A stretch of DNA of 64,000 bases from Owenia fusiformis. Lineage: Eukaryota > Annelida > Polychaeta > Sabellida > Oweniidae. Each line of letters opens with the position of its first letter. The stretch's first letter is position 1. The translations under genes were made by a program, and so were the position numbers. The notes beneath the pieces are model-generated. The model did not search any database. It worked only from the letters and a program-made list of their open reading frames with translations, and had not been told where the DNA came from. The stretch covers positions 40,773,394 through 40,837,393 of the forward strand of contig CAIIXF020000005.1 in the NCBI GenBank assembly GCA_903813345.2. The letters are read 5' to 3'. Positions 37,801 to 43,800 of this stretch are shown here, piece by piece.

Positions 37801-40800
37801 GTGAAATTGACCTTTGGAATTCTCGTGTCACCTATCTTGAGAACGACATGACCTTTAACACTTGAATCAGTGACCATATCATTAAATGTCAGAAAGTTAC
37901 ATTTCGCTGGATGGATTTCATATCGCCATCTTCTACTATGTTCAAAGGCAGCGTTTAACATAAGTTGCATATCCTTTTGATTTGTGGCAATAATGGTTAA
38001 TATATTTCAATTAGGATTGGCAGAGACAGTTTTATTATAGGAGTAGAAACATTTTTATATTGCAATCAAAGTTCCATAATATGTAATGGCTTCTTTATTC
38101 AATAGTTGCAAGCTTTCCATTGACATAAATGTAATTTGCTCTTGACTAATATACCATTCGAAATATATAAAATATATATATAAGGGGATAACCATAAATT
38201 CTTATAAAACATCTTTACAAATTTTATAACATTTTACACAGCAATTGCCTGTAAAAAGTATTTTTCTTCTGGCTTTGTTTATCTTAGTCCAGGTGCCCTC
38301 AGTTTCATTATCGTTGAGTTATGATTGCTAATTGCAACTCAGGTACCTGAATGTACCCTGGATTTGCTCAAAATGTTATATAATTTTGTTTTATAACTTG
38401 TTTTTTTATTTGTTTTTTGGTAGGGTGAGCCCCAGCTAAACTGGAGCGTTTTTGTTCCCAACGAGGAATTATTTGTTATTGTTTGTTCTTTTATGTCTGT
38501 TGTGTAATGTTTAATGCTTTATTATTCAGGATGAAAGGTTTGACTATAGAGCTAGATGAGACGAAGAAACAGAGAGATACTCTACAAGCTGAGCTGAATG
38601 CCATTAAAACAAGCTCTACAGAGGACATTTACATGGCACAGATAAAAGAGGTATGTTTTTGTTCTACATGTATATTTCATCCCCCTCCCTCTTAGTATTT
38701 TACATAGTTTTATGATAAAATAGAATGTCAGTAATTCTTATACATGTGAGAATGTGTACTGTAAACCATTTGTTCTCTATAGTCCCACAATCATTTTTGT
38801 GTTGTTACTACGTTTTTGGTAATGTTCTTGTGTTATGGTTTTAGTTATGTTACTATGGTTTTAGTGATGTTGCTGTGGTTTTAGTGATGTTACTATGGTT
38901 TTAGTGATGCTACTATGGTTTTAGTGATGTTGCTATGGTTTTAGTGATGTTACTATAGTTTTAGTGATGTTACTATGGTTTTAGTGATGTTACTATAGTT
39001 TTAGTGATGTTACTATGGTTTTAGTGATGTTACTATGGTTTTAGTGATGTTACTATGGTTTTAGTGGTGTTGCCATGGTTTTAGTGATGTTACTATGGTT
39101 TCAGATGGAGAACACATTAGCTGAGCAGAGCAAGGAGATACAAGCGGGTAAAGACAAACTGCTGGCACATGATGCTGCTGCAAAAAGGGCCATCACTAAA
39201 TTACAACAGGAGCTTAAACACAGGCTGGACCAGGTATATGCTAGTGTTATTGTGAATCGGAAGTTTTTGAAATTCAAAATTTTTTGTCCTTCAAACGCAG
39301 ATTTTGTAAATTAGAATTTCACATATCACATGTTGGTAAGAATTTCACATATCACATGTTGGTAAGATTAAGAAAAGACTACAATACAAGGCAAGGCAGT
39401 TTAAACTTTACATGTGACCTTTAAACAATACACCCACATTGCTCTTTCATTCAGGTGTCTAAGATGTACAAGGACTATCTCAGAGAGAAGGACAGTTTAA
39501 ACTTTACATGTGACCTTTAAACAATACACTCACATTGCTCTTTCATTCAGGTGTCTAAGATGTACGAGGACTGTCTCAGAGAGAAGGACAGTTAAAACTT
39601 TACATGTGACCTTTAAACAATACACTCACATTGCTCTTTCATTCAGGTGTCTAAGATGTACGAGGACTATCTCAGAGAGAAGGACAGTTTCATGTGACCT
39701 TTAAACAATACACTCATATTGCTCTTTCATTCAGGTGTCTAAGATGTACGAGGACTGTCTCAGAAAGAAGGACAGTTTAAACTTTACATGTGACCTTTTA
39801 ACAACACGCTCACATTACTCTTCTATTCAGGTGTCTAAGATGTACGAGGACTGTCTCAGAGAGAAGGACAGTTTAAACTTTACATGTGACCTTTAAACAA
39901 TACACTTACATTGCTCTTCCATTCAGGTGTCTAAGATGTACGAGGACTGTCTCAGAGAGAAGGACAGTTTAAACTTTACATGTGACCTTTAAACAATACA
40001 CTTACATTGCTCTTCCATTCAGGTGTCTAAGATGTACGAGGACTGTCTCAGAGAGAAGGACAGTTTAAACTTTACATGTGACCTTTAAACAATACACTTA
40101 CATTGCTCTTCCATTCAGGTGTCTTAAAGATGTACGAGGACTGTCTCAGAGAGAAGGACAGTTTAAACTTTACATGTGACCTTTAAACAATACACTTACA
40201 TTGCTCTTCCATTCAGGTGTCTAAGATGTACGAGGACTGTCTCAGAGAGAAGGACAGTTTCATGTGACCTTTAAACAATACACTTACATTGCTCTTCCAT
40301 TCAGGTGTCTAAGATGTACGAGGACTGTCTCAGAGAGAAGGACAGTTTCATGTGACCTTTAAACAATACACTTACATTGCTCTTCTATTCAGGTGTCTAA
40401 GATGTACGAGGACTGTCTCAGAGAGAAGGACAGTTTCATGTGACCTTTAAACAATACACTTACATTGCTCTTCCATTCAGGTGTCTAAGATGTACGAGGA
40501 CTGTCTCAGAGAGAAGGACAGTTTCATGTGACCTTTAAACAATACACTTACATTGCTCTTCCATTCAGGTGTCTGAGATGTACGAGGACTGTCTCAGAGA
40601 GAAGGACACTTTAAACTTTACATGGGACCTTTAAACAATACACTCACATTGCTCTTCTATTCAGGTGTCTAAGATGTACGAGGACTGTCTCAGAGAGAAG
40701 GACAGTTTAAACTTTACATGTGACCTTTAAACAATACACTCACATTGCTTTTCTATTTAGGTGTCTAAGATGTACGAGGACTGTCTCAGAGAGAAGGACA

Positions 40801-43800
40801 GTATGGTTGTGAAGTTTGCGCAGGGTGAATCCAAGATCCTTGAGCTCCAGAAGACAATTGATAAGATGGACAAACAGATCAGGGACAGTGTCAAGGAGAA
40901 AGATATGATGGCATCTAAGATGAAGAACATGAGAGTTGAATTCAAGGCCATGGTCACACAGCTGGAGAAGAAGGTACTTGCTCCATGTAATCTCCCCCGC
41001 ATTACCTTTTCAAAAGCTTTTCATTTCATGAGTGTAGCTATGAGGCAAGCGTCTCACGAGAACTTTTCAGAAAATTAAGTCTCAAAAGTTTTTTAAGCAA
41101 AGCTGATAAAAATATGTCCAATAGAAGTATAATATAATCTTTGCCTCGTGTCTTTCTTGCTTATTTGAATTTGCCTCGCTTATTTCTGGGATCCTGGCTA
41201 TTTCCTTGGTGTTTAGCTTGCCTCAGTGCCTCACCTGTTACCAATAAACCTTTGAGCTTGCACAAAAAAGATTCTCAATATATGTTAACATGTCAGTGTG
41301 GGAGCAGTTTTCTCTGATTGGTTGGGGCCCTAATATAGTTTCAGACCCTTCTTTAGAATTGCTCTAGAATATCAAAAGTAATATTTACATTACACACATG
41401 TATTTACACTAAACCATATGTTTCACTAATCAGGAACTAAAATAGACTTGAACAATTAAAAAGGAATTTAATGAAATCCAGATTGTTTAACATGATTAAA
41501 TATTGAAGTATTAATTTGTTTGACTTTCATTAATTTACATTTTTATGTGTTTAATTGAAATTGCAGAAATTCAAATATATTTGGAATTTATCTCAAAAGT
41601 TCATGTTTTTTTTTTAAAAATAGAAATCTTCTTAATAACATAAGTGTTGATATTTATTCAAAACATATCTGTTGTAATTGCAACGTACTGTACAAAAATA
41701 TAGGCTACAAACAAAATATATACAAAACTACTAAACTCGATCTGTTTCACTATATCCCTTAAACTACATGTTTTTAAAGAGAACATGAACATGTAGTACA
41801 TGTACTATCACCCTCTGATCTATTTTCCTCATACCTTTATACCTTTATTCAGGCAACTCGATATGAAAGGGAAAACTGAATCCTAGAAGGACATGAATTC
41901 TAGACTTTCAAGTTATCTTTGAAACATGTAGCTTACATTCTCTGTTATCAACCCACTGAATGAACTAGTTCAGTTGGGATATAGTGAAACCATCCATTTG
42001 AAAAGATACAATACCACTGTTCTACTGTCTGGTTCTGTCTGTCATGTAATGTAATGTCAAAATCATGAGTAATTTGATAAAATATGTTTTGTGTGGTGGG
42101 ATTTGCTGCTCCAGTGAGTTGCTTTTTCTATTTTTCCTCATGATGATCATATTGTGATTGTATTTCAGACCACTGACCATGCTACCCTCACAAAAGAGTT
42201 CACTGCTTACAAGGATAACATCTCATCACAAGACGTTAAAGTTAAGTGGGCAACAAACAAACTCAAGGCTGAACAAGATGCTCATAAGGTATTCTATTGT
42301 ACAAAGTCTACACTTGTAATCCTCTACTGCAGTTACCCCACACTCTCCCACTTATCCTTACCCCAATTATCCTTTACCTCTGTAACTCTTTGGCTCAGAT
42401 ACTATTTCCCTCAGTTATTCTTATCCCAGTTATCCCTTACCTTTTTTTAGCCTCTATCTCAGTTATATTTTAGTCCAGTTATCAGTTATCCTCATCTCTT
42501 ATTATCATGTACAAATATATATATAATTCATATATCTACTCCCTTTATTATTTTTTTTCCATTTTTGACATACAGTATACATTGAAATCTTCAAATTGAA
42601 ATGAATTAGTTCAAATCAGTTTCAAACTAGTACCTCCAGTGTTTGATCCCTTTCATGCTTTTTGAGTGAATAAAGAAACAGCACTGCTGTAATATTAACT
42701 GTACATGTATTTAGGAGACTAAAGAGAAGCTCACCCAGATGACCAACCGCTTCAAGGAAGCAAAGGAAGAGACTAACATCATCAGACGCGACTGCCAAGC
42801 TATGATTAAAACATATCAAGTAAATAATATACTTTATCCCATGATTATTGTTTTGGCCCTATGATAACAGTCAGTGATATTATAGTTTTAAGTGTGATAT
42901 TTTCATTAACTGTTAATAATTTGACTCAAATGGGTACAGTACAAGTACATGCAATAATAGAGTTTGACTACAGAGCGCATAATCATCAAATCATTTGATG
43001 TGACATGTACATGTATTTTAGATTTCCATAAAGCATGTCTTAGCTCTCCATTGTGAGCGATCACTGCCTGCATATTGTTGCTTATTTGAAAACAGAGAGA
43101 TATGATGAGTATTGCTATGGGAAATTTATATTTCCATTGCTTTTATAAATCTCCATTATTTTCTACATCTCCATTGTTAGACCTCAGAGGATATCAAGTC
43201 TGTTTCACTGGACAAAGAACTACAGAAGAAAGAAGATGAACTGAAGATGCAGATACAAGAGAAGACTGATCAGGATGAGGTATCTGCTCCCTCTCATTGT
43301 AACAGTGATCATATCAAGCATTGTAGAAAAAATCGGAGTTAATGACGATTTGATTAATCAAAAGAGACAATTCACATCTAATCTTGCACTGTATACATGT
43401 ATTTATGAAATTTTGATAAAAGATTGCTGCATGCCTATTACTAAACTTAAGTTGATTTCTTTTTAAAAAGGGACTAAAAGTTCAACTGTCTGGGTGTGAT
43501 AACTCAAGAACTGGTTTTCAGAATTATTATATATGTTGATTTTTTTATATTATTTTAATTTGTGATCAATATATGAGACCATGCTTATTTAAGATCATTC
43601 AATTCCATATATGATTTCAATATTTCAGGTTCATAATATGATTATTTCAAGTTCATAATATGGTCATTTCAGGTTCATAATATGATTATTTCAGGTTCAT
43701 AATATGGTGATATCAGAGTTAGAATCTTTGAAGAAGAAACACAAAGAACTATTAGAAGAGCTGAGAATATATAAAGACAAGGCTCAATGTCTGGACGCTG

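Follow-up and report, generated by a model that had tools for sequence, protein, structure and literature searches.

A Fifteen-Unit Junction-Spanning Minisatellite in the Annelid CCDC186 Gene, Probably a Mirage Tolerated by Splicing

In the 64-kb window, that is, the whole stretch of Owenia fusiformis DNA analysed here, the 3' splice junction of CCDC186 exon 4 is repeated in tandem fifteen times. We consider it quite likely that this array is a neutral mirage minisatellite that splicing tolerates: repeats of this sort are already described in lancelets, so the array has the look of a DNA-copying accident that the cell puts up with. The array would have started with a chance tandem duplication across the junction and may have grown to fifteen units via unequal exchange or slippage. 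Exon 3 would join mainly the fifteenth acceptor, since only unit 15 adjoins a whole exon and its donor, which lies 213 nt away, so that exon definition is the probable selector. Occasional use of one of the fourteen upstream copies, the decoys, would lead to an early stop and an RNA that is expected to be degraded. The array presumably brings the gene no benefit.

Gene Model

The features are collected in Table 1. Protein comparison and the gene model bear out the initial annotation in its assignment of the gene to CCDC186, and a deposited Owenia fusiformis protein of 787 aa, P0001, is matched exactly inside the model from residue 400. Its sequence agrees with the fifteenth acceptor; P0001, which is described as partial, is the one source for the use of unit 15 and is blind to stepwise splicing through decoys. 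The published O. fusiformis gene set is reported to have drawn on RNA-seq splice junctions (PMC9977687). As the first 42 nt of the exon are identical between unit 15 and nine of the 14 decoys, these nine are inseparable by short-read junctions within 42 nt, and an RNA-based gene model is hence not strong proof.

A 133-aa piece of exon 1 found no match in the PDB at E 0.001, and two protein pieces hit no Pfam family at the curated cut-off; PF27942 is precomputed for most CCDC186 relatives among the matches listed. A conserved valine behind the AG/GT exon starts was considered and dropped: among 16 aligned CCDC186 proteins, hand-picked from 120 listed of 451 matches, valine occupies the start of exon 4 in ten and that of exon 8 in five, which is not strong conservation at exon 8.

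Table 1. Features of CCDC186 and its repeat arrays (slashes mark splice boundaries; TRF, Tandem Repeats Finder).
Feature	Position	Strand	Basis
CCDC186 coding model, 17 exons, 1186 codons + stop, single continuous frame	22960..53133	+	gene model; P0001 match
20-bp array, 13.4 copies of TATGGTTTTAGTGATGTTAC	38834..39101	+	TRF
CCDC186 exon 3, donor CAG/GTATAT at 39233/39234	39105..39233	+	gene model
Intron 3, 1527 nt	39234..40760	+	gene model
Putative mirage minisatellite, 15 units	39400..40801	+	TRF and motif alignment
14 decoy units, each CAG/GTGTCT	39400..40705	+	alignment, pairwise table
Unit 15, genuine junction, acceptor TAG/GTGTCT at 40760/40761	40706..40801	+	alignment; agrees with P0001
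CCDC186 exon 4, 213 nt	40761..40973	+	gene model
Putative second mirage, ~4 copies of 22-bp unit TATTTCAG/GTTCATAATATGAT, exon 8 acceptor at 43695	43621..43716	+	TRF, gene model

Architecture of the Exon 4 Array

TRF delimits the array at 39393-40802 with a period of 96, 15.1 copies, 94% matches and a score of 2298, and the motif [CT]AG/GTGTCT counts 15 junctions in it. Their first exon-like bases lie at 39455, 39551, 39647, 39735, 39831, 39927, 40023 and 40119 (units 1-8) and at 40217, 40305, 40393, 40481, 40569, 40665 and 40761 (units 9-15), which corresponds to 14 spacings: eight of 96, five of 88 and one of 98. Copy number and unit lengths are therefore as initially annotated, and so are two further points established by alignment, namely that the fifteenth copy alone continues into the exon and that CAG precedes the junction in the 14 upstream copies, TAG at the real site. 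The exonic stretch per unit, given before as 44-45 nt, has to be corrected: each unit joins 47 or 55 nt from the 3' end of the intron to 41 nt from the 5' end of exon 4, or to 43 in unit 8, and at most 42 nt are shared with the exon. Both parts are present in all 15 units, and the repeat accordingly spans the intron-exon boundary; the AG/GT core is likewise found in every unit.

The pairwise table reveals a homogenised interior and diverged edges, as expected of a mirage minisatellite: units 6, 7 and 9 are identical, as are units 10 and 12, while 3-9 substitutions set unit 1 apart from the others and 3-7 do so for unit 15. The interior unit 5 likewise lies 5-9 substitutions from every other unit. 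Furthermore, unit 8 carries a 2-nt insertion, and 8 nt are missing from units 4 and 10-13. Short tandem units can be misassembled, which apparently happened to the amphioxus BflGb6 draft as reported in PMC3087553. Here, the non-periodic order of the substitutions and indels speaks against such an origin of the array or its copy number, as do the published O. fusiformis PacBio reads, whose N50 of 25.75-30.75 kb would span 1.4 kb if the window stems from that assembly (PMC9977687); an assembly artefact is very improbable.

As a possible seed of the first duplication, we considered microhomology and rejected it: exact identity between the left flank and the unit 15 end is limited to CAG, or to 5 nt with one mismatch, and about 2% of random pairs are as good.

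Strength and Reading Frames of the Decoys

We scored the acceptors with a matrix built from the gene's own sites and with a generic splice-site matrix. On the former, the decoys reach 6.2-9.0 against 8.2 for the real site, which five of the 14 exceed; on the generic matrix, they reach 8.6-9.5 against 7.4, and all 14 exceed it. Upon translation, all 14 decoy routes run into stops that precede the exon 4/5 junction by 243-1453 nt. The read-throughs quoted in the initial annotation, KDSFM-stop included, do occur, but not in every unit: the route from unit 2 stops straight after KDS, that from unit 4 passes through unit 5 before it stops, and that from unit 8, shifted by its 2-nt insertion, ends after VS.

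These two properties are preconditions for a decoy buffer, in which the decoys would take a real share of splicing, their products would be degraded and the copy number would thereby set CCDC186 output. The length of the intron that use of unit 1 would create, 221 nt, points in the same direction, as it is near that of the gene's shortest intron (237 nt among 16 mapped). Against this stand the amphioxus mirages, which reportedly leave splicing undisturbed, the lack of any sign of constraint on the decoys (see below) and two protein searches for a decoy isoform: the first returned 251 candidates with one match, the regular P0001, and the second zero candidates, both tests being weak, as the database may contain few O. 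fusiformis transcripts. A dampening buffer is hence possible but unsupported, and we give it only a small chance. Of the two readings offered initially, buffer or inert minisatellite, the inert one, which places the array in the amphioxus class, fits better; for the buffer, only the preconditions of score parity and universal stops were found.

The decoys are well equipped in other respects: 10 of the 12 positions before the AG are pyrimidines in all 15 units, and a branch-site-like yTnAy lies at -19 in 14 of them, the exception being unit 1, the one nearest the donor. The missing motif there might reflect selection against splicing to decoys, but it comes down to one base in one unit. Conversely, one might suppose that the repeated branch sites and pyrimidine tracts raise local U2AF/U2 loading and so aid the weaker TAG acceptor, which scores below all decoys on the generic matrix. 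Loading upstream would favour upstream AGs, though, and TAG acceptors serve six of the 16 CCDC186 introns, only one of which has a spanning array; such assistance is highly unlikely.

All six exonic differences in the decoys, which fall into five columns (one common to units 1 and 3; unit 8 excluded for its frameshift), are non-synonymous, and since 98 of the 117 possible exonic changes are non-synonymous, six of six is expected without coding constraint. Variable columns amount to 14 of 55 in the intronic and 5 of 41 in the exonic part of the 15 units, a difference that is not significant (Fisher p 0.13). Taken from the letters alone, the decoys thus appear to bear no sign of selection. That all 14 have kept CAG/GT could have selection as another cause, though few mutations occurred.

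We also considered RNA structure that hides the decoys and discarded it: a two-unit stretch and the stretch from unit 15 to exon 4 folded with z values of +0.95 and +1.65, positive values being weaker than shuffles. Inverted repeats of at least 12 bp are absent from 38700-41100, and Rfam gave no match at gathering scores within the 64-kb window.

Further Arrays in CCDC186

Two further arrays, at exon 8 and upstream of exon 3 (Table 1), do not appear in the initial annotation. The exon 8 array again covers an acceptor; splicing to its decoy acceptors, 43629 and 43673, would run into stops, and one copy reads CAAG. That one gene has two mirages points to a mutational process that recurs. The TATGGTTTTAGTGATGTTAC array stops three bases (CAG) short of exon 3 and contains 13 TTTTAG sites; we would class it as mirage-like only, because it is without exon sequence.

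AG/GT is found at two of the 16 acceptors of the gene, those of exons 4 and 8, which are both the sites of spanning arrays (1 in 120, post hoc). A decoy joined to exon 3 would recreate the donor CAG/GTGTCT, which could be re-spliced to the next acceptor, and so on without a trace; between them, the 15 AG/GT sites mark off 14 GT...AG segments in succession, each 88-98 nt long. The recreated donor outscores five of 13 gene donors on the own-gene and eight of 13 on the generic matrix (three later-mapped donors left out); compared with 1145 intronic GTs, it stands at the 93rd and 97th percentile. Moreover, human UBC is reported to make use of dual-specific AGGT sites that lie in tandem repeats (PMC10809524). 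On the other hand, the G at +3 of GTGTCT occurs in none of the 16 gene donors, the segments are shorter than all 16 mapped introns, and the corresponding exon 8 sequence CAG/GTTCAT is low on the generic matrix (1.99). We therefore regard such stepwise healing as quite unlikely. Its wider form, according to which junction duplications persist mainly at AG/GT acceptors because they heal themselves, draws on two cases (n=2) and seems to us similarly doubtful.

We make no claim of a general enrichment of tandem arrays at acceptors, as the outcome varies with the tolerance. Among 17 arrays in the gene, hand-merged from the TRF table without the row 40604-40642 that lies inside the main array, two cover acceptors whether the tolerance is set to 0 or to 3 bp (P 0.29 and 0.31 under random placement) and four at 5 bp (P 0.018), and none covers a donor. 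With the main array excluded, three of seven arrays in 38530-53130 lie at acceptors at 5 bp, the chance of two or more being 0.19. A scan for near-copies (at least 24/30) of 30-nt windows centred on junctions found them at two of 16 acceptors, again those of exons 4 and 8, and at none of 16 donors. Controls gave 2.0% for intronic windows outside the three arrays, 8.5% for intronic windows with arrays and 0.5% for exonic windows; measured against the 8.5%, two of 16 is not remarkable.

Splice Site Choice and Implications

The array is a natural version of duplicated-acceptor experiments and hence a natural test of splice site choice; the classical experiments of this kind are said to be those of Reed and Maniatis in 1986. 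Two modes of recognition make opposing predictions: intron definition points to unit 1, exon definition to unit 15 with its 213-nt exon. In favour of the latter, a survey of alternative splice sites reports a preference for the sites nearest across the exon where the flanking introns are large (PMC9225289). By length alone, the same source would let intron definition favour unit 1, which counts against our preferred reading of a tolerated mirage: the resulting intron has the 221 nt computed for intron 3 with a single unit.

Two mirages in one annelid gene suggest that junction-spanning minisatellites may occur more widely among animals, and they are a possible route for intron growth. If self-healing were true, junction duplications would be a tolerated route of such growth, and the array would be a natural annelid ladder for recursive splicing with 14 steps.

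Comparison with Known Systems

Judged by its sequence, the array is probably not a new kind of structure but matches the mirage minisatellites of amphioxus, which are reported for the globin genes BflGb6 and BflGb9 and for Adh3, with regular splicing (PMC3087553, PMC3902484); duplications in amphioxus PGBD5 have been likened to mirages (reported among the same two sources). Among the entries listed in our search of the open-licence literature, no annelid mirage appeared, and the term was met for lancelets alone. As described in PMC3087553, the amphioxus mirages also consist of tandem units across an intron-exon boundary with AG/GT in many units, and those of BflGb6 show the same turnover, with homogenised interior and distinct edges. 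The differences lie in the host, an annelid instead of a cephalochordate, in the unit number, 15 here versus 6 and 3 in two BflGb6 haplotypes (PMC3087553), and in the second mirage within CCDC186.

A related duplication of intron 3' end and exon 5' start, which carries branch site, pyrimidine tract and acceptor, is reported to underlie intron gain in potato RdRp (PMC4974935): there the duplicated region yields a new intron that is used, whereas in the one deposited protein P0001 the duplicated units give rise to neither a new intron nor a new exon. Human UBC, as presented in PMC10809524, shares with all 15 units the tandem AGGT sites that can in principle act as donor and acceptor; its units, however, are coding and in frame, while the decoy routes here all hit stops and use of the AGGT sites is putative. 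For human segmental duplications, variable internal tandem repeats with the capacity to alter splicing are likewise described at exon-intron boundaries, but these reside in recent paralogs whose transcripts attest to a changed structure (PMC2812944). Finally, in the minisatellite of IFI6 (6-16), the repeat units are reported to serve as multiple splice donors (Turri 1995; PMC4526556): there the donors are repeated, in CCDC186 the acceptors.

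CCDC186 gene model and protein

The 17 coding exons of CCDC186, mapped with their splice sites, form a single open frame, 1186 codons long before the stop. With the coiled-coil part as query, a protein search returned P0001, a 100% identical deposited O. fusiformis protein entitled 'unnamed protein product, partial [Owenia fusiformis]', and CCDC186 from Lineus, molluscs, Branchiostoma and mammals was among the matches listed (120 of 451). P0001 matches the model letter for letter over 787/787 residues from model residue 400 onward, but would be identical for direct joining of exon 3 to the genuine exon 4 junction and for joining in steps, and cannot separate the two. 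This identity assigns the window to the annelid O. fusiformis or to something extremely close to it. The start of P0001 falls near the end of a tandem repeat in exon 1, and the annotation seems to have been cut there. As for neighbouring features, the open frame in intron 1 looks by eye like a putative fragment of a retrotransposon reverse transcriptase, the coiled-coil-like frame upstream of CCDC186 is probably an exon of another gene, and the paired short repeats, which are near reverse complements, are possibly the ends of a mobile element.

Features of the CCDC186 region (slash, exon junction)
Feature	Position	Strand	Description
Upstream open frame	14605-16380	+	591 codons; coiled-coil-like by eye
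CCDC186	22960-53133	+	17 coding exons
Exon 1 repeat	24038-24180		30/60-bp tandem repeat in coding exon 1; the peptide repeats resemble QAIVQNDNIQ
Paired short tandem repeats	33506-33538 / 33715-33750		TGGATGGAGGGGGGGAG / ATCCCCCCCTCCATCCA; about 180 bp between
Intron 1 open frame	36762-38006	-	414 codons
Exon 3 array			20-bp units with 13 TTTTAG sites; ends three bases short of exon
Exon 4 array	39400-40801		15 units of 88, 96 or 98 nt
Weak repeat before exon 7	43133-43176		18 bp, 2.4 copies; stops four bases before exon 7 (43181)
Exon 8 array	last unit at real acceptor 43695		about four 22-bp units, TTTCAG/GTTCATAATATG

Tandem arrays at the acceptors

Each unit of the exon 4 array joins 47 or 55 nt from the 3' end of the intron to 41 nt of exon 4 (43 nt in unit 8): the junction reads CAG/GTGTCT in the 14 decoys (units 1-14) and TAG/GTGTCT in unit 15, the genuine one. 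Units 6, 7 and 9 are identical to one another, and so are units 10 and 12; the edge units and the divergent interior unit 5 are distinct. Tandem-array turnover usually leaves such a pattern. Intron 3 now measures 1527 nt; with one unit it would measure 221 nt. Most likely, the array is a neutral mirage, the amphioxus name for a minisatellite whose units span an intron-exon boundary: the junction would have been duplicated and the array expanded, splicing would tolerate it through exon definition, and decay would clear residual errors.

A second spanning array lies at exon 8, where two upstream copies keep an intact CAG and both routes lead to stops. The units before exon 3 lack exon sequence, and TGA would be the first codon for 11 of the 13 TTTTAG sites. 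Among the arrays in this gene, an excess near acceptors over chance is not clear. Only two of 16 acceptors, those of exons 4 and 8, read AG/GT, and both carry the spanning arrays (1 in 120), a post hoc pattern in one gene; an AG/GT self-healing ladder is an alternative to the neutral mirage.

Acceptor strength and context

Splice scoring used generic frequencies and, from CCDC186 itself, 12 acceptors and 13 donors; the last three introns, mapped later, were left out. The small own-gene matrix, built from 12 other introns, gave 6.2-9.0 for the decoys and 8.2 for the real exon 4 acceptor, the generic matrix 8.6-9.5 and 7.4, respectively. A branch-site-like motif (consensus yTnAy) occupies -19 in 14 of 15 units; the sole exception, unit 1, is the decoy nearest the donor and has CCCAC (39430-39437) where the others have CTCAC, CTTAC or CTCAT. 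Because decoy scores and motifs resemble those of the real site, short signals do not discriminate the real acceptor. The difference lies in context: unit 15 alone runs on into the whole exon, with the donor 213 nt away, as against 309-1519 nt from the decoys. An acceptor funnel is a further alternative to neutrality. According to a survey of alternative splice sites, those that pair are the closest across the exon where introns are large and the closest across the intron where introns are short (PMC9225289); the exon 4 array pits these two rules against each other.

Consequences of decoy use and selection

Each of the 14 decoy routes runs into a stop, from which the exon 4/5 junction lies 243 to 1453 nt further downstream. 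Such distances suffice for junction-dependent decay in other animals, and the decoy-route stops are predicted to lie far enough upstream for it; a dampening buffer is one of the alternatives to the neutral reading. Since 9/14 decoys match the first 42 nt of the real exon, the acceptor is not assignable from short reads, an ambiguity between unit 15 and the decoys that is important to anyone checking the array.

With the frameshifted unit 8 left out, the decoys show six exonic differences, in five columns (one common to units 1 and 3), and every one of them is non-synonymous; as 98 of 117 possible changes are non-synonymous, this outcome (probability about 0.35) is unremarkable. Across all units, variable columns number 14/55 in the intronic and 5/41 in the exonic part, which is not significantly different (p 0.13); the decoys taken separately have 12 and 5. 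Neither substitution type nor variable columns gave evidence of decoy maintenance in the exon 4 array.

Comparison with amphioxus mirages

In amphioxus BflGb6, the unit likewise comprises an intron 3' end and the 5' part of an exon, and two haplotypes carry 6 and 3 units with a homogenised interior (PMC3087553). PGBD5 is described as carrying similar repeats, and the authors of that study state that the Adh and TnC mirages yield no aberrant mRNAs (PMC3902484). The Owenia exon 4 array shares the sequence-level features compared and, judged from sequence alone, belongs with the amphioxus mirages, a kind already known.
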